From positions 592,923 through 656,922 of the forward strand of contig CM041204.1 of the NCBI GenBank assembly GCA_023078555.1: a DNA stretch of 64,000 nucleotides, in the 5' to 3' direction. Shown here one piece after another: positions 19,760-64,000 of this stretch. Source of the DNA: Ulva prolifera (taxonomy: Eukaryota; Chlorophyta; Ulvophyceae; Ulvales; Ulvaceae). Made by a program: the position numbers and the translations under genes. Every line of letters begins with the position of its first letter. Positions within the stretch are counted from its first letter, which is position 1. Under the pieces are notes generated by a model, which was not told the DNA's origin, did no database searches, and saw only the letters and a program-made list of their open reading frames with translations.

Positions 19760-22700
19760 ATGGCGAACATGCTAGCCAACGAGGATAGTGACGCTGGAGA
19801 CCCATACAAGCTTCATCACAAGCTTGATGACTCAGCTCAGCTTGCTGAAATCATGATTGGGGCGGATGGGATGCTTCATCTGCAAGGCCACGCGGATGTG
19901 CTCAAGGAAGACGTCGTGTCGAGGAGCAGCGTCTTGAAGAATGCGGCCAAGACTGCAGGAAGCGGGTCCAAACAGCATCTACCTGTTGGCACAAACACAG
20001 TGCTTCTTTGGCTGTCTGTGGTGAAGGAAGATGACAGGCAGCTTGAAAGCCTGTCTGCGATACAATTTGCAAGAGTGCTCACGGTACGCACCCACAATCT
20101 GGCAGTCATAGATGTCTGTGATGCCTTCACCTTCGTCCAAGTTGTATTGCCTTGCGGAGTGGCTATGCACTATCCCCGGAATCGATGTGCACGGCACGGC
20201 TAATGTCGCTGATCAGGCAGCTTGCCGGCACGATCGCCTCACATCAACGTTCGGCGTGGCTTTAGAGATTGGCCTTTCCGCAGGAGACCCTGCATAGCAC
20301 CTCTATGATGATAATCGTGCCCGTCATCGCTCCGAGGTGAAACATGTCTTGCGAATGTAAGCGGGCACGCGCTGACTGAGGCCGTGCAGCGGCATACATC
20401 CTCGGCGCTGCGCCGTCTCATGTTGCACGCACCGAAAATGAACCTGTCATTAAATATAGCAGATGTGTATCCAATCTCGTGCAAATGTGGCGTTCCGCAT
20501 GCCGTGCTGCACCACATGCCGTACGAAAACCGTCCTTCTGAATTACGCCCGGATGAACTTGCAAGGTAGTTTGCTGGCTGAATGGTATCGATTCATTTCC
20601 TAGTTGCCTTTGTCGCTCAGCTGGGAGTTTAAGCCAGATGTCGCCAGGTGGCTCTGTCACTGGCCGACGATTGGTGCAAAGCTCTGACTACTGTATGTAC
20701 CACAGCAGCATGCTGCGCAAAATAGACCCGGCAGCCAACGACCTGCCCATACCTTGAGCACTAGCATATCATCAGCTGCATTTCGCTGGGCAAGTGTGGT
20801 TTGAGAGGCTGCACAGCGGGCAGCATGGCCAGGTCTCTGCTGATCAGCACTATCTCCGTGACGCCGTGTGATGCGGATCGCCAGGCACAGACAGTGACAT
20901 CAGGCATGCAATTGCGCCTGCCCTAGCAAGGAAAGCCCTGCCGCTACCCCAAGGACTGCCCAACACCACGGCACTGCCTTGAAACATGGCGCCGACCCAC
21001 TGAAATCCCACCGACTCACCGCAACACATGCAGCCAACGAGCTCACTCATGAGCGCCACCAGTCCACCAGCAGACCCACACCCATGCATGCACCGCAATG
21101 CACAGCTTCACACGGACAGCCACACACTCGAGCCCTGGTGTAGTCAGCGTGTGAGCGTGTGGTGCTGTCCTCCCCGTATTGTGCATGCTTCCTGCGGTGC
21201 TACCTGCCCCTCCGAACGTGTCCTTTTCCCAGAAATCCACGCGCTAGACATGGCCTCTCCACTGCCCAACATGCCGAAAAGGTATGCATCCACAGGCGGC
21301 CATGCCCAGGAGGCGGACCACGCCGTCTTGATGCAACGGCCCCGGGTCCTGTGGCTGCTTTGGCCTGTTCCGCAATTTTGCGGCCATTAGGGCCCAGTGA
21401 GTAATTACGTTCTTTGCCACCTGTGTGCCGTCAGACTGAGGCCTCACTAGGCGATCGATGCGGACAATGGCATGCTTGTTGTGAAGTAGTTGTCTGTGAC
21501 AGGGCTCGTGGTGTAGTCGGCTCTGGCAGTGCCCATGCATGCGTGTGAGGCCGTCATGGCACCCATGCCTGGCTGTGCAAACTCCACACATTCGCATTGT
21601 CCAATGAGCTGGAGGTGTTGCGGAGGTGCATTTGCGTGCCTCTGCATGCATTGCTCACATTTGCGGGCGGCGTGATGTGCTTTATCTCGTTATCTTATTT
21701 CGTGTCGGTTTTCTGGGCCCTGGACGATTCTTCCAGTCTCAGTCATTCTCGCTTTAGAGGACTGAATATCAGGGAACTTGCGACCTGGTTCGGTGTTGGT
21801 TGCTTGACTCACGTATTCGTCTGATGAGGCCCTTTGGCAAGGCCGCAACATGTGATGCCGGTCCGTGATGTTCATGTAATATATACAGCATCAACCAGTG
21901 AACTTTCTACCTCAGTATACAATGGGCATCTTATCCACATGCGTACCCTGGTGGACACCCTTGGAAAACGCTGAGCATTGTCTCCATTGAAAACATATGA
22001 AAACAGGATGATGTATACATCATCCTGTTAGCTGTATGAATTCATACTGTGCATGCATGAAAGTCATGCAGACCATGTGGCTTCACGCATGCCATGTGCA
22101 TGCACAACACTGACGCGCTGTGCACAGCCAGAGGCCACCGTGGCCAGCATCAACCAGTCCATTTTTTGCCCCAGATACTACACAGCCACAATCAACCACC
22201 TGTTGCAGTTTGCCTCATTTCATGATAGTTGCCCTGACACCTGATTGCATCATCTCTCAGCCAGTGCTCTCAAGCAAACACATGGACCACAAGGAGGCTT
22301 CATTGGCATGACAGGTGTAGACAATGGTCATGCATGAGCTCCACTGACTCAGTTTGTGGCTGTGCACTGCAGACAAAAGAGTCGTGCAGAGGCAGTATAC
22401 AGCCACAGACTTCTGTGCCTGCCGAACTTGTGCTCCCGCATGCGTCCGTGAATTTCGTGGTGTCATTCCCTTTTCTGCACCGCCACTGCGCGGGTACTGG
22501 GAGGCAGCCCCTAGCCGCTGTTCTGCACTGTGCAGGGAGATGACCGCCCAACGTCGATACCGTCAAAACATGTCGGGACAGCCACAGGTGCACTGTATCA
22601 TGCTGTTTCGTCAGGATCTGTTGCCGTGCACAAACCATGTCCACTGCCAGGGACTGTTGCAGGACCCTAACATCCTGCTGCACAGGCCATGCTCTGCCCG

Positions 22701-25700
22701 AATCGCGCTCTCGGATTCATCAGGGAGGCTGTGCCCCGAATGCCCCGGCACTGCTGCAGGCGGTGGAGGCGATGGAGGACGACACGACCCTCCGCGAGAT
22801 CTGCGCGGCGCAGCGTGACCGCGTCGTCGCCGCCACAGCCACCCCCGTCGCCGCGCCCCGCGTGTCCCCCTACGCTCGCATCCCCCTCTCCGGCTCCCTC
22901 GGCTCCCTGCGCCGCCTCGCCCCCAGCTCCCGCGGCCGCGACACGCTGCAGCGCTCTGCAAGCCTCAGGTCAGATACGGACGGCCCGCCGGTGCACAAGG
23001 GGGCGGGGGCGGCGCGGGGCGCGTCGGGGAGCGTCGCGCGGGAGGTGCCGGCAGGCAAGCCGCCAGGGTGGGCGAGCCGCCTGCTATGCTGCGGCGGGCA
23101 TGGTGTGGCTCTGCGCGGTCAAGGCTTTGCCGCGATGCACGCTCATGCGTTACAGCGTGCGCCGTGGCGCCGTATCCCGTTGCTTGTTGTAGCAGATGTG
23201 TGCTGCTTGCTGTGGCTTTTGTGGCAGCCTCAGCCTGTGCTGGTGCCTGTGGACGGTCTCTGCAACTGGTGGAACTACAACCCAACTTGAGGTGTTGGAC
23301 TCGGACTCAGGCTGACACCAGGTGATCGTGTGCCAGAAGCAGCAAGCCCCGCCCCTGCCAAGCCCAGTTGACTCTCACCTATGCCCTAGCAGGGTCCTGA
23401 CTGATGTCACTGGACAGCCATACGGTTCAGGACAGGCTCGATCCAACATCGATCTGGCGGAAATCTCCGCGGCGTACATGCGGCGCTGCTTGGGCTCGGA
23501 GTAGGTCCCGCACCTGTAGCAAGCGTACCTGGACTGCGTGGCTACGTAGCGGTTTTTTGCAGCCATGTACTGAGCAGTATGGTGTTGTGCAGTGGCAGGC
23601 GAGGTGGACGGTGACACGCGGCTCGAGAGGGTTGTGACCACCGGCAGCGGCGGCACGCGCAGCGGCAGCCTGCACAAGCAGCCGACCTTCAACTCGGCCG
23701 CCTCCGGCCACACCGGCCGCTTCCGAGCCGCGGCAGATGCCGCAGCCGCCGCGGGGGGCGGGGACGCCGGCGGGGAGCGGCATTTTGAAGGCGGCGGGGA
23801 GGCGCCGCTGCTGTGGCTGGAGCAGGTGGGCCCCGCACTCTGCCACGAACCATGAATCATGGGTCTTGACACATACATCCTCTCAGTGTGATAGAAGGAC
23901 AACACCAGTGAGGCAGGTACCACCGCAGGCCACACATAGGGGCGCCGCACACGCACGCAACCACCGGCACGCAACAGGCCAGCACGCTTTGTCAGTGTGT
24001 CAGGCACTGCGTGGGCCACATGCGGATTCAAATTGGCTGAACTTGCCGTACGCACGGTGCATGTGAACACACGCCTGTCCCTCGAGATCCAGCGGCTGAA
24101 TGACTCACCCTGATCCATGCCACACCACAAATCACGGTCCTTTCGAGCTGGCCTGTTCGATATCCCTCTGAATGCCCGACCATGGCCACCCTGCAACGGT
24201 TTGAGCAATTCCCTCGTGCAGGTCGTCGCCCACATATCACCAGACCTCGCCCTCCGCCTCTTCCAGCCCGCCTTCGCCTCCCTCCTCTTGCCCCGGCCCA
24301 CCGCCGAGCCCCCCCGCGCCGACCTCCCGCTACACCTCCGTCTCCACGTCGCCCATGCAGCCCTCCCCCGCGTCCTCTCCGCCGGAGACTTCACTGCCAC
24401 CCTCACCTCCGCCCCCCGCGGCGCCTTTGCCGCCGCCGTCCTCCCGCAGCTCCAGGACGTCTCCTCCGTCACCCTCCAGGTCGACGCATTTGATGGCTCC
24501 GAGGCCACGCTGCGCGACGCCATGCATGCCGCGTGTGGCCTGCCGCAGCTGCGGGACCTCCGCCTCTCACTCCTCAACCGCGACGCATGCATTACACCCC
24601 CGGACCTCCACCACATGGCCGGCGCGCTCACCCTCGCGTCGTCGCTGAGGTCTTTCGCCATGCATGCCGGCTGCGCTGCGGACGACGCGGCGGCGGCTGC
24701 GTTCTCCGCCGCGCTGTGCCGCCTGCCGGCGATCACGGAGATCGAACTCACCGGTGCGGCCGCGAGGTCGCTTGCGGCCGCGCTGTCCGGCCAGCTCAGC
24801 AGCCTCTCCACGCTGCAGGCGCTCCACATCGATGACAAGGACGTGTCAGATGCATGCGTGGTGCACCTCGTGCGCGCCGCCGCAGCCCTCCCCGGCCTCA
24901 CCTCCCTCCACCTCGATGCCGAGGGCCACGTCGACCTCCCGAGGGAACGGTTCTGCGGCGGCCGCCGCACGCGGCAGCTCATCGGCGCCGTCGCGTGTGC
25001 GACGCTGCTGCAGGCGCTCAGCCTGTACGGCCCGATCGCCGAGGGCCGCTCGCTGCATGCATGGTGCGGCCTCGGCGGGGAGCTTGCCGACATCGGCGCG
25101 CGCTTTGCGCAGCTCACCCGTCTCGAGCTGATTGGCAGCGTGAGCTGCAACCAGCTTCACGGCGTGACGACTTTCATCTCGGGTCTGACCCGTCTCCGCG
25201 CGCTCCACATCGAGACGGGTGAGAACTACTGCGGGGATGGCTGGGAGGATGATGCGATCGGCAGCTTCACCGGCGCGCTGTCAGCGCTGACTCAGCTCAC
25301 TGCAATCGGGCTGACCGGGCCGGACGTTGCGGCGACGGACACGCCGAAGATCCTCCGTGTGCTCGGGCGGAGGACAGGTATGAAGAAGCTGAGCATCGTC
25401 GGCGGCGAGAAGGGCACGGCGCGGGAACTCGCGGCGATGATCGCGTCGTGTTGCCCGGGGCTCGAGGACCTGACGCTCGAGTGTGATCGCGCAGTGCAGC
25501 AGCTGCACGGCTGCCGGGGTTACGCCGGGCTGCTTGCGCAGCTGACGCAGCTGCCGCGGCTTGCGTCGCTGTGCGTGATCATGCGCGGCAGGCTGGCCGC
25601 GGACTCCGAGGCCGACATGCTCTCGCTCGGGTTGCGGCGGCTCACACAGGTGCAGGAGCTGCTTCTCGGTGTGAGCGTGAGCACCGCTGCCGTTCTGCAG

Positions 25701-25973
25701 CCGCTGCTGCAGCTCATGCCGGAGGCCGGAGTCGGTGGCAGTGCCGCGGAGCGGGCCGGTGCGGGGATGTCGGGGCTGGAGGTGCTGGACTTGAGTGTGG
25801 TCAAGGTGGGGAGTGGCGGGGGCCACGCACTGAAGCTGGCGGAGCTGCGGAGGGTGGCGGAGGGGGATTCAGCGGGTGCACCGAAGGGTGCGCTGCTGGG
25901 GCTGCCGGCACTGCAGGAAGTAGTGCTGGCGGAGGGGCCGCTGGCCGCTGCAGATGTGATGCGGGGCAGCTAG
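19760..25973 (+). CDS. Gene A: SKP1/BTB-like domain plus leucine-rich repeats, about 881 aa
   Basis: Exons 19760-20083, 22760-23102, 23599 (or 23593)-23825 and 24222-25973; phases 0, 1, 0 agree and the frame closes at TAG. Exon 1 is the SKP1/BTB-like domain (MLHLQGHADVLKEDVVSRSS, then IQFARVLT). Exon 2 begins AVEAMEDDTTLREICAAQ, which continues the same C-terminal helix. Its end, RLLCCGGHG, corresponds to HLICCCLKPG in gene D. Exon 3 ends in LLWLEQ, a family signature. Exon 4 (583 aa) is a ribonuclease-inhibitor-type LRR array (LRDLRLSLLNRD, ITEIELTGAAARSLAAALSG, LTRLELIGSVSC). By analogy with SKP1/BTB and LRR receptors it may bind a cullin and a substrate. It is the most diverged member and the only one on the plus strand. 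The start ATG has a good context (gggATGGCG). Confidence 0.8.
22002..22029. repeat. 28-bp perfect palindrome in gene A intron 1
   Basis: Two 14-base arms (AACAGGATGATGTA and its complement) meet with no spacer. The site is in the 2.7-kb first intron of gene A. It could extrude as a cruciform, bind a dimeric protein or mark an excised element. Confidence 0.85.
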
Positions 25974-26909: not shown

Positions 26910-29900
26910 TCAGGCTCCAGCCGCCTTGAAGTGCAGCCCTGCTACATCCGGGGGACACACGCTCACGTTCACGCCCCATTCCGAAGCTAAGGCGAAAGCG
27001 TCGGCGCCTGCTGCCAGAGCCCCTCCCAGCTTTACCTCTTGCAACTGCGGCAAGCTGCCCACGGCTGCTGAAAGTGATGCCAGCCGCACCGGGCGCCCAA
27101 CGCAACTGTTGCAGCGCACCTCCAACACCCGCAGCTGCCGCAACCCTGGGCATTGCAAGGGCGCCGCGTGGATCCGCCCCACCTGGAGGCTGGACTCATC
27201 ACGAAACCACAGCGGGACATTACGCCGCGTACGCTGCGGAACACAGTCACCATTTACGAGGCCCGACCCCGTGATCCCACGTGGATAATTGCTGCCGGTG
27301 CCCACACCCGTGCGCTCTTCCACCATGAGACTCGCGCCTACTTCCCTTAACACGTGACCATCTATCTGTATGAAACCAAGCACCAGCTCCGTCAGGTTGG
27401 AAAGCTGGTGCAAAGCAGGGATGAGGGCTTCCAGGCCAAAGTTGAGCTGGCCCAAAAACAGGCGCCTCAGGTCAGATAAGCGCGATAAGCTTTTCTCGAG
27501 CTCCGGCATGAAGTCTGGCTGTGATGAATCATCGACACAGGAGAAGTGTAGAGACGTGAGCGTGGTCAGGCCACTGAGAGACGCCGCGACGAGCTTCAAC
27601 TCGTAGCTTGGGACCTCAGCACCCTCGAGGTGAAGTTCTCGGAGCGCCGTAAACCACGTCGTGGACCCCATCGTGCCCGCACGAGGCACAGCGATAGGCC
27701 ACCAGTGGCTACCGGTGGCCGTGTAAGGTTGGTGATTGACGAGCGCCAGCTTGTGCAATGCCGGCAGCCTTACAATGCTTGCCACAACATGTGCAGCAGG
27801 CCTGGGGGGCGCGTGCAAGCAGAAGCCCGTGAGGGCGAGGGTGGTGAGTCTTGACAACTCTGTGAGCCCCACAAACAGGCAGCACATCGCAATGATGCAT
27901 CGTGACCTGCGGCCATGTCTCAGCTCGCCGCATGACGCATGCCCCGGCACAGACACCTCGAGGGCCTGCAGGTGAGGCATGCTCGTGAGTGCACGTGCAA
28001 GCCCCCCCACATCAACGCAGCGCACACAGTTCACCAACGCGAGGCGCGTCAGGCGCGCGAGTGCAGATGCATTGACCGTCATCGCGGCACCGATGTCAGC
28101 CCATGTGGGCGGGTCCAGACTTGGCGTGTCAGAAACACCATACGGGGCTGTGGCACCGAGGTGGAGGGCTCGAAGGTGTGGCGCAGAAGCAATCGCTGCC
28201 ACCACCTGCCCTGACAATTCAACCGCCGCCTCCGCCGTGGCAGCACCATTCCCATCATGCATGCCGCTCATGCACACGATGCCCAGTGATGACACCGCAG
28301 TCAATCTAGACACGATGTGCGCCAGCGTGTGCGCGTGCGGCAGGGCCACGTCGCTGACGTCTACTTCCCGCAGCGCCGTGAGCGCCGTCATGCATGTGGC
28401 CAGCGGCCTCAGAAGGCGCTGCGTCAGGCCAGCGCCGCTGAGCTGGAGGGACGTCAGGCTCGGCAGGGTGCAGATGTGCTGTGCGAGGTCTGCCGCGGCA
28501 GCAGAGTCACTGCACTCATCCACGCGCAGCCTCAGCCGCTTCACCTCTGAGCTCCGAGCGAGCCCGGCTGCCATGGCACGCATGGGAGCCGAGGACTTCG
28601 AGGCACCGGTGTCGCTTGAGGTGAATGTCCCGCCTCCACGTAGATCTCTGAGGGTGATGCCGAGCGACTGCAGGTGCCTCGGGGAGAAGGCAGCTTGCAC
28701 TGCGCGCTCGATGTCACCGTCCGTGAGTCGTCCGGACAAACAGCGCCTGCTGCTTGAAATTGGGATCACATCCACCAAGTCCAGCTTGACGGCCGTGAGT
28801 CCAGTCAGCAGGGGCAGGGTGTCTGAGATGCTTTGAGCTTCGCGGGCGAGGTGCACAGTCGCCTCGAATGCGTTCTCCGAGGAGACGCAGGCCTGCAGCG
28901 CGAGCGTGCGCATGCGTGCGGGCATGCTGCCCAGCAGCGGCAGCACGTCCTGGATGCGTGGTGCCGGCTGGAGTGCCGCATGCATGAGAGCCAGTGCCAC
29001 GCCTGTCGGCACTGCAGCCACTACCTGCACGGCGGCTGTGAGTGAGGCGCTTGCAGGACTGGTTGACCATGATGCATGCAGACCTGCGGAGTCACTAACA
29101 CGGTGTTGACACGCATGCCAGGGGAGGAGCACGCCGGACGTAACTGCCATACGTATATACACGGCCTGCGACCGTGTGTGCACCGCGCTAGAGCCAAATT
29201 TGAAGTTGTGTGAATGCGGCGCCTGTCGCCCAGTGCTCGCCAAGACTATTACTCCCCACATCAGCGGTCGGTCTCGTCGACCAGAGCTGCACATACAGTC
29301 CCCCCAATGGACTGCTGGTGAGGCTGTGCAGGGTGAAGCACTGTGATCATGGCTCACGGGCACGCGCAGACTTGTACGAGTTTGTGACGCACAGCTGACG
29401 CACCTGCGCGGCCGTGGCCGCTTGACACAGCGTGCACAGCACAGCATAGCACGTAATCCGGGGCTGCACCTGCTCAAGCCACGGCAGCGAGTTGACCTCC
29501 GAGTGCGTGCAGTCCCACCCGGCTTCAGGCACATTGTTAGCATCCCATGCATCATGCACTTGTCTTCCAGCAGCCGAGGTCGGCTCGCCTGCCGGCGAAA
29601 TCGGCACCGCCACAGACAGGTCCGACAGGGCAGAAGGGAGGTCCGCATTTGGTGCTCCAGGAGTTCCTGCACCCGTGACGCTGTATCGGTCCAGGCCGGG
29701 TGTACACGCGGAGGCTATCACATGTGAGAGCCTCCGCCGCGCCTCTGCATATGCATGAGACGACAGAGCTGCACCTGCAGTACTAGTTGACCCTTTGCGC
29801 ATGGCGAAAGCTGTTGCAGGTCTACAGGCGCCAGGGTGTACATGCGTCTGGTTGTCTGAGGGGGATTCGTAGATGCATATGGTTTACCCCTCCGGCATGT

Positions 29901-31761
29901 GGTCCCGTTACCTCGGAGTTGCACTGTCCCCTTCAGGATACGGATCGGAAAATCTAGATTGACTTGAGCGTCACATTGGATCGGCGAAACGACTCATACG
30001 CATACGCATGCTGTACACATGCACATGACCGGTGCTGTCGTTGTGCACTATGGCTGCTGGTAGTAACTCAAGGTTCGTGGACGAGGCGATGGATCTTCAG
30101 GCAAGGCGGTGCGCACCATGCCGCAGACGTCATGCAACAGGCGTGGCGCGCGCGCGCGCGTCGCAAGCCGGGCGCTGGTCGGCTGCAGGGTGTGCTACAC
30201 GGACAGTGCCGGAGAGGCGGGCTGCTCTGCAGGCACCGTGCGCACGACCCGAACAGGATCAGCGCACACACACGCAAGCCACGGACACACGCAAGCCACG
30301 GACACAGGCAAGCCACGGACACACACAAGCCACGTACACACTGTACATGGGTACACTGGCGGTGTATGGCGCACACACGAGGCACCGCTGTCACGTTCCG
30401 CAGAGCCTCACCCAGGCACTCTTGCGATGCAACACCACCTTACGCCTTGCACGTCAGCATGTTCATATGAAGTATATACTTCCACGCCCCGACCCACACC
30501 AGCACACGCGTAAGAAAGGGTGTACTTGCACAGTACTGTATTGATACTCAAACACATGTGGGGATCATGATGTTTGGTGTCATGTCCTCAACTTTGCTTG
30601 TGAATCAATCAAGCTGGTGGTGGCCCACCGGGTGCGCACCTCGGCGGATGCGGCCAGACTCGCCTTGGATCACGCCGCCCCAACGGACGAAATTTGGTGA
30701 CCTTGAGAGTTCTGGGGCGGGACTGGGTGATGCAGCGAGCCCGTGGCGCACCCGCGGGCGAACTGCGGCGCACATTCGGTGCACTGTCTCCGTGTCCGCC
30801 ATGGAGTCGGCCGCCTGCATGCATGAGGCGTAGCTATAGCATGATGTCAGCGGCAGCAATGCTAGTGCAGCCAGATGCAGGCCTAGGCAGCCTGAGAGTC
30901 ATATGCTGCTGCTTGCGAGGGCTGGATGTCGATAATGAGCGTGAGACTGTAGAACCGACGTACATCTAGACCACAAGGTATAGCGTGTAGCTGTATACAT
31001 CTACACTGTCACTGTGGTCCAGCAGTCATGAATGGCGCCACATCCAGCCGGCAAACAAGAGTGGCGACAGGTGCTAGACTACATTGGTGGCTGCACGCGG
31101 ATATAGCAGGCACTTGAGCAAATACTATCGCATGCAGCTGCATACGGGACCTCAGCCGTTGCTGAAGCCAGACTCACGTCGACAGTCGTGGCCATGTGCA
31201 CGGGGTATATTACAGCAGAGCAACGGTCAGGCAGCACAGGCCGGCAAACACAGCACGCGGGTACCTTCCGCGGCCGTGCACTGCGGTGGCTCCGGGGTAT
31301 CCGGACGTCCGGATCGATCGATGCCAGAGCTGCACGGCACAGTCGTGCCAGCAGGCCACTATTGCTGAGGCCTCTGAAGTCTGGAGGGCTACTGGTGTGC
31401 CTTGTCAGCTTCGACAATGCGGGCGTGCGTCGCGTACCATTAGCGCTGATGCCAGCTGCCGCGACGACAAGGCGAACCCGCGGAGCACCGACCCCTCCGT
31501 CGTGGCAGCTATAGCTGCAAGCCAAGCATCAGCCATCTCTCGAGAGATCGGCAAGGGAATGACATCCCCTGCTGAGCCAGTCTCTGCAACATTGGAGAGG
31601 ATCGTGTTCCGTGCCACCAGGTCAGGCGCCAGCGCATGCACGTCGCTCCGGCCTTGCAGCTTCAGCGCCCCGCCTGTCTCAACAGTCACAGATGACAAGT
31701 TGAAATTTTCTTCTGCGGGAAGTCCCGATTGCATATCGCAGGGATCGCGCGAGTGTACCAA
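26910..31761 (-). CDS. Gene B: SKP1/BTB-like domain plus leucine-rich repeats, 972 aa
   Basis: Exons on the minus strand 31761-31438, 30814-30640, 29774-29470 and 29024-26910; introns GT-AG with phases 0, 1, 0; joined frame 2919 nt. Exon 1 carries the SKP1/BTB-like core (VTVETGGALKLQGRSDVHAL, LVARNTILSNVAE, VIPLPISREMADAWLAAIA, SSRQLASALM). Exon 2 continues AADSMADTETVHRMCAAV, matching the SKP1/BTB helix pattern. Exon 3 is a low-complexity linker ending SEVNSLPWLEQ. Exon 4 (704 aa, the longest of the family) begins VVAAVPTGVALALMHAALQP and contains many RI-type LRRs (VKRLRLRVDECSDSAAAADL, LTSLQLSGAGLTQRLLRPLA, LTTLALTGFCLHAPPRP). Same architecture as genes A, C and D, with a more diverged sequence. 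The first intron is 623 bp. Confidence 0.82.
30274..30341. repeat. 17-bp minisatellite, four copies
   Basis: Four tandem units based on GCAAGCCACGGACACAC lie in the second intron of gene B, the last unit diverged. Copy number is likely polymorphic. Confidence 0.8.
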
Positions 31762-33904: not shown

Positions 33905-36356
33905 ACGCGATCCAACACTGGTGTGTACAGCCACAACATTCACCGTCGAGCTCAAGCCCCACCAGTCACCTTCACGCCCCAATCAGAAAACGCAGACAGG
34001 TCATCGCCCAGCAGCGGCCCCACCCTCACCTCCTCCAGTCCCGGCAAGGAATCAACCACCACCTTCAGAAGCTCCACATCTAGATCCACACCCGCCAGCA
34101 GCCGGATCAGACTCACGTCCAGCACCTTCAGTCCCAGCAGCCCCGGCCCACAGCTGACGGGGAGGTTGTGACGGTAGCACAACAGCCAATTACGCAGCCG
34201 CGCCATCTGCCCCAGGGCCGAGTTCTTGCTCCGCACCACGAGCGCAAGCGCCGCCTCCCACAGCATCGCCGCACTCAGCCCCTCGTACTGCACCCGCAGC
34301 TCTGTCAACGCGGTGAGGTGCTGCATCCCCGGCGCGAGCAAGCGCAGACCCGGCCCCGTGACGTTTGCCGCGCGCAGGTCCAGCCGCCGGAGGCCGGTCA
34401 ATCGCTGCAGGCTGCTTGACAGTCCCGCCATGATGACGTGGCTCGCGTCTTGGCGTGAAATATCAAACTTGAGGGATGTCAGGCCGGAGAGAGAGCCGAA
34501 TGCCTCCGAGAGGGCCACCAGCTCGTCCCCGTGCCTGAGCCAGCTCGGCAGGTCGAGCTCGCGGAGCGCAGTCAGCTGCGCCCCGCTCCGCATCGCGGCC
34601 GCGAGCCCGGCGGCGGCTGGTGTCCAGGAGTGGGTGCAGTGTTCGAGGTCGCCGAGAGCTAGATTCTGCAGCGACGTCAGGGCTGCGAGGGCTGCGACAG
34701 AATCTCCCGAAGAAGCCTTTGGTATGTCAAGACCGGCAAGAACGAGCTCGGTGAGGCGGTTGACTATCGAGAGTCCCCGCAGCAGACGCGGCAGCGCCGT
34801 GCCGCACGCGGCATCACACAATTCTTGGCTCGTGACGCCGTACGCATAGCCCGCAATGCCAATGTTTAGTGACTGCAGAACCGGCATGCATGTGAGTGCG
34901 GCGCCGAGGCCCGGCATGTCCTCACAGCGCACGCAGCGCACGAGCGCGAGGCGCGTCAGCTGCGAGAATCCCGCAGAGCTGGCCTCCAGAGCGTGGCCGA
35001 GCCTGCCCCAGCTCGAGGCGAGACGGTCTGCCTCGCAGATGGACAGCGCACGGAGCTGCGGTGCGGTGCTCACAGCCGACACCATCTGCTCAGCGTCGTA
35101 CACTGTCGTTGGGGTTGGGATGCACACGCAGAGCTGCCGGACGCCAAACAGTAGAAAGTCGAAGAAACCCCCAAAGTAGAGCGACGTCAGGGCCGGGAGA
35201 GTGTTCGCCGCACGCGCGATCGACACGGCATACATGTGAAACATTTCCCCGTCGTCGACGTGAAGCTCCCGCAGCGCAGCGAGCTTCGCCATGCATTCGG
35301 AAAAGGTCGCGGCGAGGGGCGCGGCCAGGTTGATGCCGCTGAGATGTAGGCGCGTGAGGTGCGGCAGCCCACACAGGCCGCGCGCGAGGGCCGCCGCGGT
35401 GTCAGGGTTGCCGCAGCCGCGGCTCGCGATCTGCAGGGACTCCAAATCGGACGCCTGAGCCAGCGCTGTGGTGAGCGCCGTGGTAAGGCTTCGGGTCAGG
35501 GATTTGGTGACGAGGGACACGGAGAGTGTCTTGAGGTGCTCCGGGGCACAGGAGGCCAGCAGGAGGCTCTTTAAGGCGGTATCGGAAACGTTTGAGGGCG
35601 GATTCCCCTTGCCTTGGACACACAGGCTCACCTTGGTCAGGGCAGGAAGGTCGTGTAGGATGCTTGCAGCGGTTCTGGCTGCGCAGGTGGTGGTGACGGT
35701 GGCGTCAAACTCGCCGTGTGCATCAACGCATGGCGCGCATGCTTGAAGCGCGAGGGCCTGGAGCCATGCGGGCATGCCGCACAGCAGCGGCTGCAGCTCG
35801 TGGAACTCTGTGGCCGGCTGGAATGCCGCATGCATGAGCTTCAGAGCAGCTCCAGGGGGCACTCCTGAGGCCACCTGCACCGAGGAACCTGTGTAGCCTT
35901 GTGCTGTCATTGCAGTTTGTACGACCGTCTGGCAAGCGCCTGTCGGGGGTCCCCGATGACACAACGGCTTCATGCATTGGCATATGCCACTCGAGTAGAG
36001 GCTGTCCCTGACGGCAGTGATGATGCAATAGGAGTTCACTCACAGTGTGGCATGCATATATATGCGCGCCGACACAGCATCACGGTCCACCGCAGCACAC
36101 CCACACGGCATGCGCTCCGCGAGGTAATCCCCAGGCAACAACGTTGTACATGTGCGAGAGGAGGGTTTCACCTTTGGCGCACACCATCAAGCCAGGCCAA
36201 CAGACACCTCGTCAGCAGAATTCTCGCATGCATTGCAGGCCGTCGCAGCGAACATCACTGCGTCGCAGCACATCACATCGCAGCACAACGCGGCAAAGTA
36301 CAGCACAGCACAGCTCGGCAGCAGCGCCTCACCTGCTCAAGCCAAGGCAGCGTGTG

Positions 36357-36361
36357 TGCCT
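36357..36361. repeat. Target-site duplication of the copia element (left)
   Basis: TGCCT here is repeated at 42955-42959, immediately outside the two LTRs. Five bases is the usual target duplication of copia integrases. Confidence 0.92.
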
Positions 36362-36721
36362 TGTCACAATGCATGAGCCTGCGGGCAGTAGTGTGGTGAC
36401 AGGTGCACCCATGCACGGACGATCCGCGGATCCAGTGTAGGGGTAAGCCGCCAGTCGGGATTGTCTCGATGTAGCGGGAGAGATCCCGCGAGGGTTTCCC
36501 GTCGTAACCTTGAATGTTGTGTGTTCAGTGTGCATATATGGATGTGCACACTGAGATCTGTAACCATTCTCTTTACTGTCTTACGGTATTAGCATTTATC
36601 TCCTCTCAAGCGTTTCCTCGGTTCTACCTCTGTGCGCAGCAGGTATGGAAACGCTGGCTGACCTGATGTGACCTGAACTGAGACTGCGCGTCTGACCTGC
36701 AAGCTGTAACGGTTTCTGACA
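36362..36721 (+). repeat. 5' long terminal repeat
   Basis: 360 bp, TG...CA termini. A TATA-like CATATATGG at about 36533-36541 could be the promoter core. It is identical to the LTR at 42595-42954. Confidence 0.95.
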
Positions 36722-36736
36722 TGGTATCGATGACTG
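36722..36736 (+). promoter_or_regulatory. Primer-binding site
   Basis: TGGTATCGATGACTG starts directly after the LTR. The first seven bases match the TGGTATC used by many plant copia elements, which pairs with initiator Met tRNA. The rest deviates from the usual plant sequence. Confidence 0.65.
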
Positions 36737-36924
36737 TTAGCGTTATGTCTGTTTATGGTCTTGTTCAGGAAGCTGTCGGCCAATGTCTGTGCGCAGACAC
36801 GGCGGGCATTCCACTGTTCTGCCGGCGCTCAGACTGCGGTCAAAAAGCGCAGGCATCATTTAGCTCTCTCGTAGTATATTGTTGTTAGACACAATTCGAG
36901 AAGCTTGTTCCAATGATCAGCGCT

Positions 36925-36957
36925 GAGAAAAGCGAACGCGTTCGCTTGTTTTTTCTC
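36925..36957 (+). repeat. Strong hairpin in the copia leader
   Basis: GAGAAAAGCGAACG pairs with the following CGTTCGCTT and TTTCTC, separated only by a short bulge. The core AGCGAACGCGTTCGCT is a 16-bp palindrome. It lies about 75 bases upstream of the polyprotein start, where packaging or dimerisation signals of retroelement RNA are usually found. That role is inference. Confidence 0.6.
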
Positions 36958-37030
36958 AACCTGTCGGCTTGCGAGCCACCCCATCGGTTAGTTGCTGCGC
37001 GCGACGAACAACCGTCTGTCCTAATGCAGG

Positions 37031-40000
37031 ATGTCTTTCTCCAACGCTAATTCTAACGCCAACTCTCCTCGCGAGGAGAGGCGTGACGATGCTGACCAGC
37101 AGCCTCTCGTCGCCAGGGACGCTGACCAGCAGCTCCCTGACGGAGAACAACCCGCGGGCATGTTGCTCCGTGGCGGACGGATTGTCCGGCCACGACCATC
37201 TTCCAATACTGGGCAGAGTAGCCAGCAGGTGCCTCATTCCTCTCATGTTGTGAACGATTCTGGTCACACTGAGTCTCTCATATCACTCGCAACGTTGACT
37301 GAGGCGCTGCGCGCATCTCGAGGACGTAGCGAATCTGATTTGACAAAAGGAAAGTTTCCTGAGTGGAATTATAAGACTGAAAGCTTTGTTGCGTACGAGC
37401 AGAAAGTCTTTTTGTGGTTAGGTCAATTCGAGTTAGACCATTTGTTGCAGCACGCACCGTCTGCGGACGAACAACGTGTTCATGCTAGGGCGAGGACACA
37501 GGTCCTAATGTCTTTGCCTGACGCGGATAGGACGACTGTCTATCGCATGTCACACCTGTGTGAAGCATGGTCTTACTTGACTGCCAAGTACAGACCCAGC
37601 ACCGAAGCCGAAATCCACAGGTTGTGGAGTCGGTTCAATTCTTTATCACAGCACAACAAAGACGTTGCGACGTATTGTGGTGAAGTGATGAGTGTTTACA
37701 CTCAACTGGAGGCACTAGGTGCCGATGTGGGCCAGCGATGGCTTAGATTGAAACTTTTAGAAGTGGGGGAGGAGTTCAACGCTGTGCGCGGCGAAGTACT
37801 ACACTCCTCCCCCCATGTAATTATATCACGTTTAACCGAGCACGCTGACTTGCTCAAACAACAGCGGCAGCTGCAGGCTAGGTCTGGGGCGCCCGCGGGC
37901 AAACCAGGCTGGCGCAAGCAGGCCCGTGGTGATGGTCCTGTGGTCGCCGCTCTCGCGGCTGGCCAGGCTCCTCGCGAGGAGACCAGGACCTGCTTCTTCT
38001 GCAAGAAGAAGGGACATCTGCGTGCGAACTGCCCCCAACGCAAACATGCTGCGGCCAAAGCTGTTTGCACTGTTGAAATTCCTGAAAAGTATCCTCAGCC
38101 AGACGCGTCTCTGCCGTGGAACATCATTGTAGATAGTGGGTCGGACATGCATATCGTAGGCAATCGTGAAATGTTCACTGAGTACGGCCCGTGTCAGAAA
38201 GTTGCCAATCTCGCGGGACCAGGGCAGCTTTCGATCATGGGTGGGGGAACCATCTTGGTGAACCTGGGTACTTATGTAGACAAGTGTGGGAACAAGCATC
38301 CGTTAGATGTGGAAATCCCTGGTGTTTACTACGCGCCTGAATGTCCGTACAACCTGCTCAGTACGATGGGTCTTAGGCATGAGCAGATGTTCTTAGACAC
38401 GCGTAGAAATGTGTTGTATGTTCCTGGTCTGGGTGATATGGCTACCGACGTAGAGGACGACGTCAAGTATCAGGAACTTGACGTAGATGGTCACCCTGTC
38501 TTTGCTTTCAAAATGGCAGTAGAGACCAAACCTATTCTCGTCGGTGCGCCGGTCAATAGGGGGGTAGTCTGGTCCAACCAGAGCAGCCCAACCTCAGTTA
38601 TTGAGGACCAACAGCAGTGGCATCATGTGGCGGTCGCGGCCGTTGACCTGAAGCGACCCAATGCTGGGGGAGCTGAGGTCCCACATGATGCATACTTGAT
38701 GGAGCCTGCTTTTCTTGCACACTTGTCATTTCACCAGTCAACGTGGGTCCTAAAGCGTATGCAAGCCAACGCTGAGTTTTATGGTAATTTAAATTTGAAA
38801 GTTGATTCCGAGCCATTAGGGAATCGTTGTCATGGCTGCAGAATTGGCAAAGTGCCTGCGGGCAAATTTTCTGCCAATGACCGTGAGCTCATGGGCCAGG
38901 CCAAGTTTCCTGGTGAGCAACTGCATGCCGATTTAGCTGGTCCTGTCTCTCCTGTCGGAATTGGTGGTGTGAAGTATGTTTTGTTTGTGATGTGTGCCTT
39001 TACCCGTTATACTTTCGTGGTCGGTCTGCGCAAAAAGAGTGAGGCTGCGGCCATGATCTCTTATATTATTGAAAGCATTCGGGTGAATGTGGTGAAGCCA
39101 GGTGAACCGGGTGTGCGCATCCTACACACCGACAAAGGGGGAGAGTTCATGGTCGAGGCCTTAAAACTCTACCTCCAGCGTCGTGGCATCACTCACCGCT
39201 TGACCCCCACAGCCGCTCATCGCTGTAATGGCATGATTGAGCGGAGGATCGGAGTTGCCTTTGAGTCACTCCGTGCTGTGCTGCTCGCGAGCGGCCTGCC
39301 TCTGTTCCTGTGGATAGAATGCCTCGCCAGTGTTGTCCATGGTCACAATCTCACGCCGTCCTCGGCGCTGTACCATGACAAGTTGGCGAGTATCCTCAAG
39401 TCCCAGAAAGGTCAGCATGCTGTCAACGCATCTGCGGATGTTGACGAAGCTGAACGGAGCTTGGGGAAGGGTAAGCGCATGAAAAAGGCCGAGCGCGATA
39501 AGTTGAGGGAAGAGGAAAAACGCAAGTACAAGTTGCTTGCGACGACAGAGTTAGATGAGTTTTTAGTCCGGTCTTGTGATAAGGATATCATTCCTTACAT
39601 GTCCTTTTTCAGAGACACCTCCGTTGAGGTGTTCCAAGATCTGCTGCGGCAGCAGCGTCCGTGGGGGGTTGAGGTGTATGCATACCCTAGGGATGACAAG
39701 CTGCGGAAGTTATCCCAAAGGGGTGTCCTTGCATACTGGGTCGGGGCTGGGCTGGGCCCCAGCATGCAGCGTGTGTACGCCCAGGATGTTCCTGGGGGTA
39801 GGGTTTTTGTTGTGCGCCAGGTTGTGTGCACTGCGGATCAGATGATCCGCCACGTACGAAAGTACGATGCGTCCGCCGTTGTGGACAAGAGGGAGCCTGA
39901 GGAGTTTGCGAACTCCTATACGGTTGCCTTCGAGGGTGACGATGAGGGTGAACGTGTTACTGACGCCGATGTGCCTCCTTTCGCGGCAGAACACACGTAT

Positions 40001-42577: not shown

Positions 42578-42587
42578 CAGGGTTTAT

Positions 42588-42594
42588 GGGGGAG
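42588..42594 (+). promoter_or_regulatory. Polypurine tract
   Basis: GGGGGAG directly before the 3' LTR, the expected primer for plus-strand DNA synthesis. Confidence 0.75.
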
Positions 42595-53354: not shown

Positions 53355-54154
53355 GTATCAATCAGACGCCGGGCTGTTTCAAAGTGCCACGCACCCCAAC
53401 GTATAATATAATCAACTAATTCCCCAGGAGCAGTCGGAGTTTGATGTATCGGGCAGGTGTGGACTCCTCTCCCACGACAGGGCACCCGCTGCACTCAGAT
53501 CAAACTGTCACGGGCAATCGCTGGGGAAGCCACGAGTCGATGGACCCGAATCAGCACACCCGCGACTGTATCACGGGTGCAGCCGTCCACCCGAGACAAG
53601 TCACGGGTGCCGGTCGTTCTTGTAGTGAAGATGCCAGGATGCCGCTGACCTTCGCGAGCCCCGAAGGTCCTAGCACTCGCGCACGAACATCGATGTGTGC
53701 AACCTCATGCATACTGTCAAAGCAGTGCTGTAGCCTCGGGGCAGCGCACCGCAAGCGTCAGCACGAGTTGCTGGGCAGACACGCCCAGCTCCAGCAGAGC
53801 GTCGCTCCCAGGTTGCGCTGCAACAGCGGCACACCACGCCGCAGCCATCACCCGGGTGATCGGCAGAGGAACCAGTGCAACCCCTGTGGCGGTTTCTGCT
53901 ATGTGGGACAGGATGCCATTGCGTGCCACCAGCTCGGGCGTCAGTGCAGCATGCTCCCCGGGATGGGTGTCCAGCCTCAGCACCCCGCCAGCCTCCACAA
54001 GCACACACGCAATGGCCCCGCTACAGCTGGATTCAACAAACATAGCAGACTGCTTGTAATTCGAAGTTCCTGGTGATGAAGCCTCTGTTCCGGTCCTCAC
54101 ACCTGTGCTCCGCAAGCAGGCTTCACAGTGCAGCACGGAGGTGTACGCGTGCAC

Positions 54155-56608: not shown

Positions 56609-59600
56609 TCAAGCTCTGCCAGTCACTTTCACCCCCCAGTCGGAGAATGCAGACAGGTCATCCCCCAGCAGCGGCCCCACCCGCACCTCCTCCAGCCCCG
56701 GATACGACTGTACCACGTCCTTCAGCAGCACTGGCTCCAGGACCACGCCCTCCTCCAGCCGGCAGCCGCCCACGTCCAACACCTTCAGCCCCAGCAGGCC
56801 CGGTCCGCAGGGGTAGGGGCCGCCGATATCGATGTTGGAGTGTCGCAGCATGCGCACCCGCGCCAGCGCCTCCTCCCCAAGAATCGATGCGCCGCTCGGC
56901 ACCACGAGCGCGAGCGCCGCCTCCCACAGCATCACCGCAGTCAGCCCCTCGTACTGCACCCTCAGCTCCGTGAGCGCAGAGAGCTGCTGCAGCGCCGGCG
57001 CGAGCGCGCGCAGGCCCCGCTCCGTGATCTCTGCGGCCCGCAGGTGCAGCTGCCGGAGGCCGGTCAAGCGCCGGAGACTGTCCCGCAGGCCGTCCATGTC
57101 AAACTGACCAGCCTCGAGGCACGAAACGGCAAACTTGAGCGACGAGAGGCCGGAGAGGGCGCCGACGGACTGCGAGAGGGCTGTCGCCGCGTCCACGTCA
57201 ATGCGCCAGCTCAGAAGGTACAGGTCGCGAAGCGCGGTCAGCTGCGTCCCGCATCGCATCGCGGCCGCGAGCGCGGCTGCAGCCGGCGCCCAGGTGTGGC
57301 CAGAGGGGGCCGCGTCGCTGAGGACTAGGTTCTCAAGCGCCGGCAGGCTGGTGAGGGTCGCGACAAAGTCGCCCGAGCAGGGCTCTGGCACGTCGAGACC
57401 CGCGAGTATGAGCGTGGTGAGGCGGGGGGCGGCACGAATCCCGCGCAGCAGGCGCGGCAGCGCCGCGTCGCAGGCGTCGGCGCCAACCCCACAGCTCGGG
57501 ATGCCGTGCGTGTGGCCCGCGAGCACAACGTTGAGGCTCTGCAGGTGCGGCATGCATGCGAGCGCTCGGCCGAGGCCCAGCATGTCCTCGCATCGCAAGC
57601 AGCGCACGAGCGCGAGGCGCGTCAGCTGCGCGTGCCCCAACGAAAGAGCGTCCAGCGCGCGGCCGAGCCCGCACCACGCTGAGGAGATAGGGTTCCCTTC
57701 GTAGATTGTCAGCGCCCGGAGGTGCGGGGCAGTGCACATGGCTGATACCATCTGCCGGGCACTCTGATGCGGCTCCGCAGCCGCTCCGATGAGGCTGCCG
57801 CGCCGGGCAGTGCTGACACCCCCGAAGTACAGCGACGTGAGGGCTGGGAGCGTGGCGGCGGCACGCGCAATGGCCGCGGCATCCTCTTGCGGCATCGCCC
57901 CGTCATCGATGTGAAGCTCCCGCAGGGACGTGAGGTTGGTCATGTGCACGGAGAGGCTGTCCGCGAGCGCCGCGACGGGCCCCTGTCCTCCGAGGTCAAG
58001 GCGCGTCAGGCGCGGCAGCGCGCACAGCGTGCGTGCGAGGGCACCCGCGGTCACAGGATCGCCACAGCTGCCTCCGGCAATCTGCAGGGCTTCCAGTTCG
58101 GACCCCCGAGAGAGTGCCGTGGTGAGCGCAGCGGCGGGGCTCTGAGCCAAGGAGGAGTCGGAAAGAGACACAGAAAGTGTCTTGAGATGCCCTGGGGCAC
58201 AGACAGCCTGCAGGAGGTCCTTCAAGCTGTCCTCGGAGACACTTCTGGAAGGCCCACCCTCGCCTTGGACGCACAGCTTGACCGTGGTCAGGAAGGGCAG
58301 GTGGGGCAGCATGCCTGCAGCACTTCTGGCTGCTCTGGAGTCATGGATGGCGGCTTCAAACACGCCTTGGGCATCGATGCATGGCGTGCATGCTTGGAGC
58401 GCGAGGGCCTGGAGGTGCGCGGGTTTGCCGATCAACAGTGGCTGCAGCTCCTGGAACCCTGTGGCCGGGTGGAATGCCGCATGCATGAGCTTCAGGGCGG
58501 TGCCTGTGGACACTCCAGAGAACACCTGCACCAACAAACCCATCACATGACCTGCTGTTTGCCTCACAGCGTGTTGGTCATCCAGCCGCGTCCCGTCGTC
58601 GGATCGCTGCTCCCGAATCAGAATCGATTAGCTCGAGTTGATGGTATACCGGCTGCGTGCCGGTCAACGACAATCTGGTATTGGTATCGCCGAAAACACA
58701 CCAGCAGCGCGTTCGACAATGTAAGCGTGTTGTGCACACAAGCGCGCCACCACAGCCCAGGACATCTTCATTGCAAAACACACAACTTGAATGCATGCGC
58801 TCCGACAAGCTTGCACGGTCAAAACCGCCAGTACCGGAGACTTCAAAAGCGTACGAAAGGAAATCCCGCCAACAGACACATGTGCCGCCCGTCCAGCAAG
58901 CAAGCCGGAAGCAGATTCAGTGTACCGGCAAAGCACGTTCGCGCTTCACAGCGCAGCGCAGCACACGCACAGCATGCCGGCAGGGCCTCACCTGCTCCAG
59001 CCACGGCATCGGGTTCCTCTTCGAGTAGTTGCAGTCCTGGATCACCCCGGCGGTGGCGCAACCAGGCGGCTGCGGGGGCAATGGCAGCTCCAGCGAGGCG
59101 GAGGCATGCTGTGCGTGCTGTGCCCGCAGCACGCTGGTGTCAGCTGCGGAGGGCGCGCTCGCAGTTGCTGTGTCGGTCGCAGCTTGCAGAAGCGCCGCGG
59201 AGGTGCGTGCCTGTTCTCTGTCGGGCGTGCTGCGACCTGCACAGGCGCGCGGCGGTGTGTGTACACTGGGACTCTCAGTCCGAGACGCTTGATCCGAGAC
59301 GTGTCCGCCATGTCAGCGGCAGATGCATGTGCTGCGTTCAGATATTCAGACAGCTGTTCGGCGGTGGCATCCGGCCCGGTGCGTCAGCAGGTGCAGGTAA
59401 TCTGCGACGACAGCGAAGCGCTTCGACAGCAGGAATCTCCGAGAAAAAAGACATACATCAGCCCACGCAGGCAAAGGAGATCACGAGCCAAAACACGCGC
59501 ACACACAGGTGGCAGGCTCAATTGTCAAGCTTATCCTGCTAGCAGGAGTCCCGCGTAGTGGGACGCACCGGGCTTGAGGCAGCAGCAAATCAGGTGCTGC

Positions 59601-60918
59601 AGCGCGCTGGGGGCCTTGCGGGTGCGGACGCTCGTCGAGCGCCGCCGCAGCCGCGGGTCCTCGGCAGGTACAAACGTGGCCACGGTGTCGCCAGAGTCGC
59701 CTGTGCGCTGCCAGGCGCGGTGCCGGTGCCGGCCAATCCCGCCACTGGACGTCCCGCCAGAGGTGTCGCCCCGACGCAGCTCCCCCACGGTGACGGTGTG
59801 CGTTGCGAGGCGCACCCGGTCGCGCTGCGCCGCACACACCTTCTCGACGGTTTCCGAGTCCGCCATGGCATCAGCTGCCTGCATGCATGTTGAGCATGTG
59901 TTTGAGCGGCGACGGGTTTGACCCTTTCGAAATACTGCAGCAATGTGCATCCACCTCGTCGACGGTGGACGTCCTGGTGCAAGACTTGGCTGTGCTTTGT
60001 GTGCTTTGTGTGCTGAGTGTGCTTTGTGAACACCTATCCAGGGGGTGTGTGTTGTGCTCTGCGGTGCTACCTGCCTCTCAGGTAGCCTCTCGGGCTTTGT
60101 CCTTGTAACACCTCAACAGGTGACGGGCTTCACTGCGATGGGGAGACTCGCAGGTGTCTAGACGCTGTAGCTCTACATGCATGGTTCGTCTAGCCTACCT
60201 GAGGTTGAGGATGCAGGGCCTCAACATGCCGCTGAACAGCTGTACACTGGTATGCACTTGATGTGAATTCGTGCTAGGTGGTCGTGAGCGGTTGGATAAC
60301 CCACAGCCACATTGGTCTGCATACATGCAGTGGAAGACGACCCATGCATGGCCATGCCCTGCATGTCGTCAGCAGTGCAGCAGATTCAGCACATCTCTGA
60401 TTGATGGCTTCGCTTCTGTATTCTGATAGTCGCAACAACCCTTCGTCCAGCGCCCAGCAAGCTCGAAATCACAGAATCCCAGAAACGAGGCTGAGCCAGG
60501 ATGACCGGATCGCGACCCCCAGAGGCCTGACTATCGCGCACGCAAATTGAACCATGCAAAATGAAACACAAGACCATCAAAGTATTGGTGCGGACTGGGG
60601 GTAACGCACCGCAAGCGTCAGGACGAGTTGTTGTGCCGACACGCCCAGCTCGAGCAGCGCCTCGCTCCCAGGTTGCGCTGCAATAGCGGCACGCCACGCC
60701 GCGGCCATCGCCCGAGTGATCGGCAGAGGAACTACCTCACCCTCTGTGGCCGCATCCGCGATGTTGGATAGGATCTCATTGCGTGCCACCAGATCCGGTG
60801 TCAGAGCATCACTCTCGCCGTCCAGCCTGAGCACAGCACCAGCCTCCACAAGCACGAGCGCAATGGCACGCCTGTCTTCAGAAGACATCATATGTACAGC
60901 CTGCCTATTTTCCGACAT
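56609..60918 (-). CDS. Gene D: SKP1/BTB-like domain plus leucine-rich repeats, 926 aa
   Basis: Exons on the minus strand 60918-60610, 59878-59569, 59236-58992 and 58525-56609; GT-AG introns with phases 0, 1, 0; joined frame 2781 nt. An in-frame ATG at 60972 would add 18 residues. Exon 1: VLVEAGAVLRL, LVARNEILSNIADAATEGEV, VPLPITRAMAAAWRAAIA, SAQQLVLTLA. Exon 2 continues AADAMADSETVEKVCAAQ, so the junction reads as one SKP1/BTB C-terminal helix (compare the pattern ILAANYL...L...C of SKP1). Exon 2 ends HLICCCLKPG, and exon 3 ends RNPMPWLEQ. Exon 4 (638 aa) holds RI-type LRRs (LTRLDLGGQGPVAALADSL, LREDLY-like LRDLYLLSWR, LRQLHLRAAEITERGLRALA) and ends FSDWGVKVTGRA. It is the best preserved member and the closest relative of gene C. 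Confidence 0.85.
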
Positions 60919-60972
60919 GCCGTGTGATGCGGGCCCTGATGGTGTTTGCATAGCCGGCCTCGGCGTCACCAT

Positions 60973-62410: not shown

Positions 62411-64000
62411 TCACAGGGCGCCACAATCACACAGTTCCCATGACCTGCAAACCACCCGCGGCTCTGCCTGCGTCCCCCCCCCCCCCCCCCCCCCCCTCCC
62501 CCCCCGACGGGCTGCCCGTGCCCTCCGCCTGGCTTCCCGAGATTCCGCAGGCGCCTTGGGCACGGTAACTGAGGCCTGGTAGCACATGCGCGAGGTGCAC
62601 ACTCTCAACCCCTGAGCCCCTTTCACAGCTAGCAGTGCTAGCTCCTCTGCTGCCTCCTCAAGTGCCCCCCGCAGCCGCACCTCCTGCAGCCGCGGCAGCG
62701 AGTGTGTAGCATACTTAACCATATCCAGCGAAATCGGATGCAAGCGCGTGCTAGTATCGTTGACGCCGTAAAGCTCCAGCACCCGCAGCATCTTCAAGCC
62801 CCTTCCCCTCCTCCCCTCCTCCACGCCCATCTGCCCCGCATCGGCGACCGCTTCCGTGTCCTCGAGTTTCACCATTGCGATTGCAGCGTACTGCAGGTTC
62901 GGATAGTTGCAGTTCGTGATCTGCACTGTCAGCTTCGTCAGACAGGTAAAGTGCTGAAGCACGCGCATAGTGGCATAATGACCGATGAGTGACAACTGCT
63001 GCAGGCCGGGCAGGTGGCAGTGCGCTGTTTCAAGGGCCCGTAACGGGGACACATCACAACTCTCTTCGGCAATGGATTCCAACGTGGTGGCTTGGACGGC
63101 AAAGTTGAGTGCCGACAGGCGGCCGACAGCCGCCGCGAGGTCCCTCACATCCTCCGTTGGGACTTCACACAGAAGATGCAGGTCCCGCAGCGCGCGAGAG
63201 CGCGCCCCTGAGGCCAGCACGTTGGCGAGCACGGCGGCTGCTGGCTTCCAGCTGTGCCCAGAGGGGGCCACGTCACTGAGCACCAGCTTGTGCAGCACCG
63301 GCAGCCCTGAGAGCACCCGAATGATCGCTTCTGCCTCACCTTTTCGAACACGCATGATCACCCCCGCAAGCACAAGTGAGCTGAGGCGCGTGGATGCTGC
63401 AAGGCCACGCCAGAGATGCTGTACAGCATGCATCTCTGCGTGGCTCATGCGGGGGCACGGCGTCCAGTCGCGGTCGCCCACCACTGGTGCGTCATCGGGC
63501 ATGTTATATGCCATGACGGAGGAGACAGACTGCAGGCGCGGCATGCATGCGAGCGCTGCGCCGGGGCCCGGCATGTCCTCGCAGCACACGCTGCGCACAA
63601 GCGCGAGGCGTGTCAGCTGTGGAAACCCTGCAGCGTGGGCCTCCAGCGCCGCGCCGAGGCCGCGCCACTCCAACGCTTCGGCTGCAGTGTCGTTGTTGTG
63701 GGCCGTCAGCCGTGTTGCACAATCAGCGGGACACGGTGGTAACGCGAAGGCACAGTGCTGCTGCTTCCGGGATCGCGGGCACGCACCAGTCAGGGAGGGT
63801 GTGCATCGTGCATGCCGCGCCGCCGAGCAGCAGGGCGCGGAGCTCCGGCAGCTCGGAGGCGGCCCCCACGATGTCCGCGGTGAGCGTGCTGGGCATGCAG
63901 TCGTTGGAGATGTGGAGCCGACGCAGCGCCACAAGGCGCGGCATGCATTCGGTGAGCGTGGGCGCGAGCGACTGCACGAGGCCCGGGCCGCAGAGCTCGA
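62411..64000 (-). CDS. Gene E: partial LRR exon of the same family, with a frame break
   Basis: From the right edge the minus-strand frame reads CGPGLVQSLAPTLTECMPRL, LRRLHISNDCMPSTL and LRALLLGGAACTMHTLPDW, then runs to a stop at 63723. A second frame takes over from about 63.72 kb (RGLGAALEAHAAGFPQLTRL, LVRSVCCEDMPGPGAALACM, VLHKLVLSDVAPSGHSWKPA, LQQLSLIGHYATM). Compared with genes C and D, one LRR module (…MVSA…APHLRALTI…) is missing exactly at the break. I found no GT-AG pair that keeps frame there, and the LRR exon has no intron in A-D. The C-terminus also departs from the family after LPRLQEVRLRG and runs through a glycine tract coded by the C run at 62474-62505. It is probably a decaying copy. 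A new intron or a sequencing error is possible. The 5' part lies outside the window. Confidence 0.6.
   Translation of the reverse strand, partial: SSSAARASCSRSRPRSPNACRALWRCVGSTSPTTACPARSPRTSWGPPPSCRSSAPCCSAARHARCTPSLTGACPRSRKQQHCAFALPPCPADCATRLTAHNNDTAAEALEWRGLGAALEAHAAGFPQLTRLALVRSVCCEDMPGPGAALACMPRLQSVSSVMAYNMPDDAPVVGDRDWTPCPRMSHAEMHAVQHLWRGLAASTRLSSLVLAGVIMRVRKGEAEAIIRVLSGLPVLHKLVLSDVAPSGHSWKPAAAVLANVLASGARSRALRDLHLLCEVPTEDVRDLAAAVGRLSALNFAVQATTLESIAEESCDVSPLRALETAHCHLPGLQQLSLIGHYATMRVLQHFTCLTKLTVQITNCNYPNLQYAAIAMVKLEDTEAVADAGQMGVEEGRRGRGLKMLRVLELYGVNDTSTRLHPISLDMVKYATHSLPRLQEVRLRGALEEAAEELALLAVKGAQGLRVCTSRMCYQASVTVPKAPAESREARRRARAARRGGRGGGGGGGTQAEPRVVCRSWELCDCGAL
62474..62505. repeat. 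Poly-C tract (32 bases, one interruption)
   Basis: C run with a single T at 62497. On the minus strand it would encode a glycine tract near the end of gene E. Such runs are unstable and error-prone in sequencing, so the reading frame beyond it is uncertain. Confidence 0.9.

Follow-up and report, generated by a model that had tools for sequence, protein, structure and literature searches.

Gene cluster and one-chain architecture

The window, as we call the whole 64,000-nucleotide stretch analysed here (C9:592923-656922, within an 88.9 Mb eukaryotic genome), contains five related leucine-rich repeat (LRR) genes, A to E, that span from position 19,760 to beyond the window end. In A-D, a domain of about 100 residues that resembles SKP1 (the N-domain) is encoded upstream of the LRR exon. 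A preliminary description of this DNA had counted the same five genes; the cluster in fact runs on past the window, with at least one more gene, F (C9:662045-666005). That description also spoke of a tandem array. The genes do form a family, but not a uniform head-to-tail series, as gene A lies on the forward strand and genes B-E on the reverse strand.

Genes A-D follow a common plan, with exon 1, exon 2, a WLEQ end before a donor site, and a single long LRR exon (Table 1). Exon 2 opens with AAD.MAD....C, of which gene A carries the variant AVEAMEDD, and the helix pair at this start in gene A corresponds to LAANYL..C of SKP1. The LRR exon starts directly 3' of GTGCAG in all four genes and is 583-704 codons long, in agreement with the 580-700 residues initially described. 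Four junctions were placed per gene (exon-1 donor, exon-2 acceptor, WLEQ donor and LRR acceptor), all GT-AG and in phase 0; the interval from the exon-2 start to WLEQ in A, B and D carries no placed splice sites. In gene C, a single frame would span the AAD helix and WLEQ if an inserted Ty1/copia element were removed. The exon 1 listed for gene C probably belongs to it, because it is 74-75% identical to exon 1 of gene D and because the gene order fits. The pairing of an upstream exon with an LRR exon, proposed for four genes, therefore holds for A-D, but gene C is split by the copia element and is not intact.

The same pairing was found across the genome. Exon 1 of gene B, used as the query, matched 25 places with E no higher than 10; the LRR exon of gene D matched 22 with E no higher than 1e-5, and another query added more distant LRR exons (23 places). 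Twelve of the 16 exon-1 matches at E up to 1e-3 are followed, on their own strand, by a family LRR exon at most 6 kb away. A 13th, that of gene C, has its LRR exon about 18 kb off, with the copia element and a 10-kb gap in between. Among the weaker exon-1 matches, 4/19 have an LRR partner, against 0.02 expected, and wrong-strand LRR neighbours occur for only 1/16 strong and 0/19 weak matches. Of the 19 exon-1 places left without a partner (4 strong, 15 weak), the four inspected by eye all have LRR-type frames downstream, and three of them (L052, L053 and L054) also have an exon-2-like helix. Moreover, the Ulva gene model P0024 (811 aa) carries the N-domain and the LRRs on one chain, with the same exon junction as placed here (between LTNILL and AADALAD). 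The closest named protein, EukProt jgi/Ulvmu1/1748/UM117_0025.1, shares 75% identity with the N-terminal query. The one-chain architecture proposed earlier is thus supported, and the genome-wide exon pairing makes it a family trait rather than a local misreading.

Two nearly identical exon-1 copies, L015 (C7:93521-93766) and L016 (C1:4704435-4704680), lie on different chromosomes and point to a recent dispersed duplication. Outside the family, two aldo/keto reductase exon matches adjoin the cluster at 6746-9226 on the reverse strand, one of them passing Pfam's cut-off. The genome contains 38 light-harvesting-protein exon matches, of which the two translated ones resemble green-plant chlorophyll a/b proteins by reading. 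Gene names of the type UM033_0004 stand for Ulva mutabilis in PMC8891106, and the similar name of the closest protein suggests that the alga is an Ulva (sea lettuce) or a near relative. The one plant-type telomere pattern searched for in the genome was not found, and a scan of the window for RNA families gave none at or above its gathering score.

Table 1. Positions of the exons of genes A-E and of the inserted element in the window.
Feature	Position	Strand	Remarks
Gene A exon 1, SKP1-like N-domain (first part)	19760..20083	+	before donor GTACGC; matches B exon 1 at E 4.6e-5
Gene A exon 2 start, AVEAMEDDTTLREIC	22760..23290	+	acceptor CTGCAG; 3' coordinate is the open-frame end
Gene A WLEQ exon end, conserved	23799..23825	+	before donor GTGGGC
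Gene A LRR exon	24222..25973	+	583 codons and stop
Gene B exon 1, SKP1-like N-domain	31438..31734	-	
Gene B exon 2 start, AADSMADTETVHRMC	30605..30814	-	3' coordinate is the open-frame end
Gene B WLEQ exon end, conserved	29470..29493	-	before donor GTGCAG
Gene B LRR exon	26910..29024	-	704 codons and stop
Gene C exon 1 (probable), SKP1-like N-domain	53750..54043	-	about 10 kb 5' of C exon 2
Gene C exon 2, upstream part (AADAMADVETLEKVC ... EHDWLYSEA)	42955..43254	-	interrupted by copia element
Ty1/copia element inside gene C	36362..42954	+	ORF (open reading frame) 37025-42577, matching gag, integrase and RVT_2
Gene C exon 2, downstream part (HTLPWLEQ) and target-site copy TGCCT	36333..36361	-	far side of copia element
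Gene C LRR exon	33952..35874	-	640 codons and stop
Gene D exon 1, SKP1-like N-domain	60610..60918	-	structure predicted
Gene D exon 2 start, AADAMADSETVEKVC	59531..59878	-	3' coordinate is the open-frame end
Gene D WLEQ exon end, conserved	58992..59015	-	before donor GTGAGG
Gene D LRR exon	56609..58525	-	638 codons and stop
Gene E LRR exon, 3' part	62411..64000	-	frame broken near 63,73x-63,81x; extends past window

Affinities of the N-domain

The N-domain was first described as SKP1/BTB-like. By profile-profile comparison it resembles SKP1, with a score of 23.3 that was reached by 0/399 shuffles; in a second run the SKP1 score was reached by 0/499. The score against the BTB set was reached by 10/399 and 59/499 (one shuffle of 400 in the first run and one of 500 in the second gave no score). 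Three copies were left out of the A1 set and of the 21-row profile: exon 1 of gene E with its in-frame TGA, the stop-bearing copy at C1:10101212, and C1:4704435, which is almost the same as C7:93521. Neither Skp1 nor Skp1_POZ of Pfam matched any of the 17 A1 members, the 8 window ORFs, the 3 joined models or P0024, and the Pfam BTB model likewise matched none of these single sequences. Similarly, the family profile found no SKP1 or BTB among PDB sequences. In profile comparison, the resemblance to SKP1 stands; by sequence, assignment as a classical BTB domain is not borne out. Since the Pfam copy used does not detect the domain, Pfam annotation would miss it.

Structure prediction gave a similar picture. 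An SKP1-type topology was predicted in two different members, and of the chains that scored highest against the predicted N-domain in VIA-align, nearly all belonged to SKP1, elongin C or BTB. The fold scores were weak, however, including those for exon 1 of gene D. For this model, Foldseek returned 39 matches, all at E of at least 2.2, with 13 SKP1 rows and one or two of elongin C; the top two rows were isocitrate lyase and IDH3, and no match was confident. Taking profile and predicted topology together, the N-domain probably has the SKP1/POZ fold.

Constraint and decay

The repeats are of the ribonuclease-inhibitor (RI) type, as had been proposed, with strand-helix units of about 28-29 residues and the corresponding fold predicted in the Ulva protein. 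In a structure search with P0024, the LRR fold fell near the LRRs of NLR proteins (the rows shown span residues 243-811, outside the N-domain).

The ratio of nonsynonymous to synonymous substitution rates (dN/dS) was calculated by NG86, using only paralogues with open LRR exons. Among close paralogues it is raised in the LRR exon but stays below 1, at 0.52-0.60 (0.56 pooled over five C1 paralogues, 0.52 for the C-D pair). In exon 1 it is 0.45 for the core (C1 paralogues) and 0.39 for the whole exon (C-D). Within the LRRs, dN/dS is 0.18 at hydrophobic positions, 0.36 on the strand face, 0.43 at positions 2-3 and 0.58 in the rest. This pattern speaks for an LRR domain that is maintained and whose strand face is not diversifying, and it is compatible with selection on the loops. 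Unlike the domain core, the first 15 residues of exon 1 in the C1 paralogues have a dN/dS of 1.19 (150 codon comparisons).

The copia element of gene C lies in coding exon 2, between EHDWLYSEA and HTLPWLEQ, and contains one long open frame. Its LTRs (long terminal repeats; 36362-36721 and 42595-42954) are identical at 360/360 bases, which indicates a recent insertion, and the target duplication is TGCCT. Several chromosomes carry related LTRs, most at 88-98% identity among the matches listed (43 matches; 40 of 930 candidates scored). An inverted repeat at 43724-45148, with 108-nt arms that are 86% complementary and 1.2 kb apart, lies in the gap between exons 1 and 2 of gene C and is perhaps a second mobile element.

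Gene E is a pseudogene, the decaying copy already suspected: its exon 1, beyond the window (C9:660169-660426), has an in-frame TGA, its LRR frame is broken, and its exon 2, judged by eye, is frame-shifted. A metagenome homologue that looks E/F-like by eye, P0009, keeps an open LRR frame.

A putative one-chain cullin receptor and similar systems

On the best reading, the genes encode one-chain proteins in which an N-terminal SKP1-like domain of the POZ superfamily is followed by a disordered linker and then by an LRR solenoid of the RI type. The SKP1-like domain may dock on a cullin, either CUL1-like or CUL3-like, and the LRR may bind a target, which would then be ubiquitinated; adaptor and receptor, two chains in the SCF ligases (SKP1 and an F-box-LRR protein), would be merged into one. 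We consider such a one-chain cullin-ligase receptor the best explanation, with a probability of about 0.5, and a putative role in protein degradation is plausible. In the genome, we found three cullin loci, one of them clearly CUL3-like, one canonical SKP1 locus, four BTB exon matches and ten F-box-like exon matches (PF12937 alone). A cullin fragment on C6 gave no class assignment.

Two observations weigh against this reading, the missing Asn of PxPN and the conserved LRR strand face. According to the excerpted text of PMC1257465, strand 3 of SKP1, with the PxPN motif, touches CUL1, and the added C-terminal helices grip F-boxes. In the family, the PLP of this motif is mostly retained, and the Asn is replaced by I, L, M, V or F in 17/17 aligned members, whereas the genome's own SKP1 reads PLMN; this loss leaves cullin docking in doubt. 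NG86 dN/dS over position classes gave no sign that the LRR strand face is under diversifying selection. As these positions are better conserved than the remainder, the data do not support diversifying recognition, nor the likeness in LRR divergence to recognition genes that had been suggested. The F-box-binding α7-α8 part of SKP1 fits no better than shuffles in 8/10 members and is borderline in gene D (3/300 shuffles) and in the glutamate-rich L035 (1/300). A loss of this part would be permitted by a covalent fusion of SKP1 to its receptor.

The missing Asn and the mostly undetectable α7-α8 would suit a POZ-fold domain that serves self-association instead of cullin binding, the LRR proteins being scaffolds or sensors that oligomerise through it. 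POZ domains are widely used in this way (PMC1257465, in the part available), but the profile signal prefers SKP1 to the BTB set, and we regard this alternative as rather doubtful. It is unlikely that the family has merely expanded under weak constraint and fast turnover, without a single ligase role, with many copies decaying and its persistence reflecting birth and death. The LRR-exon ratios of close paralogues, the stops in gene E and in the copies at C1:10.10 Mb and C9:3.06 Mb, and the splitting of gene C would agree with it; the ratios at hydrophobic LRR positions (0.18) and in the N-domain core (0.45), the intact placed splice sites of A-D, and the subfamily that is 75% identical to an Ulva gene model over the N-terminal query argue otherwise. 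Finally, a chance likeness of an alanine-rich helical domain to SKP1, to which the lack of hidden Markov model (HMM) matches and the weak fold scores might point, is very unlikely given the shuffle results, the topology predicted in two members and the nature of the best VIA-align chains.

Should the N-domain indeed dock on a cullin, the one-chain cullin receptor would be a eukaryotic class that does the job of SKP1 and that of the substrate receptor in one protein. The family LRR exons (22 places with one query) outnumber the F-box-like exon matches (10), although these counts come from different kinds of search and each is a lower bound. More tentatively, the SKP1-like domain fused to RI-type LRRs in dozens of sea-lettuce genes may define a class of cullin receptors that need neither SKP1 nor the F-box and are unannotated because no HMM sees their N-domain.

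Compared with SCF, where SKP1 and FBXL are two chains, there is one chain here, and the helices of SKP1 that hold the F-box are mostly undetectable; Pfam scans of the exon-1 and exon-2 ORFs, LRR exons and P0024 gave no F-box (the separate WLEQ-end exons lay outside the scan). The MATH-, Kelch- and ankyrin-BTB receptors of CUL3 also join a POZ-superfamily domain to a recognition domain on one chain, but the N-domain resembles SKP1, not the BTB set, in profile comparison, and the LRR replaces MATH, Kelch or ankyrin. With NLR/NBS-LRR genes the family shares a similar LRR fold and clustered, expanding and decaying copies, but it differs in the absence of a diversifying signal on the strand face, and no NB-ARC was found in Pfam scans of the pieces examined (exon ORFs, LRR exons and P0024).

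No report on an SKP1-like/BTB-LRR family in green algae was found among the full-text matches listed, most subscription journals being outside the coverage. The nearest precedent is Protochlamydia PEX1, with 73 members, an N-terminal BTB domain in all but three and C-terminal LRRs in all, as given in the excerpted text of PMC4209131. Since PEX1 already combines POZ and LRR, the one-chain architecture itself is not unprecedented, contrary to what the preliminary description implied. The likeness in the chain concerns architecture, and PEX1 is also a large, partly tandem family with birth-and-death turnover; it is bacterial, however, its BTB is seen by HMM and its proteins are thought to be secreted into amoebae. 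If the cullin reading is true, these putative Protochlamydia BTB-LRR effectors would resemble an architecture also used by eukaryotes. What looks new here is the eukaryotic, intron-bearing version, SKP1-like rather than BTB by profile, that Pfam misses.
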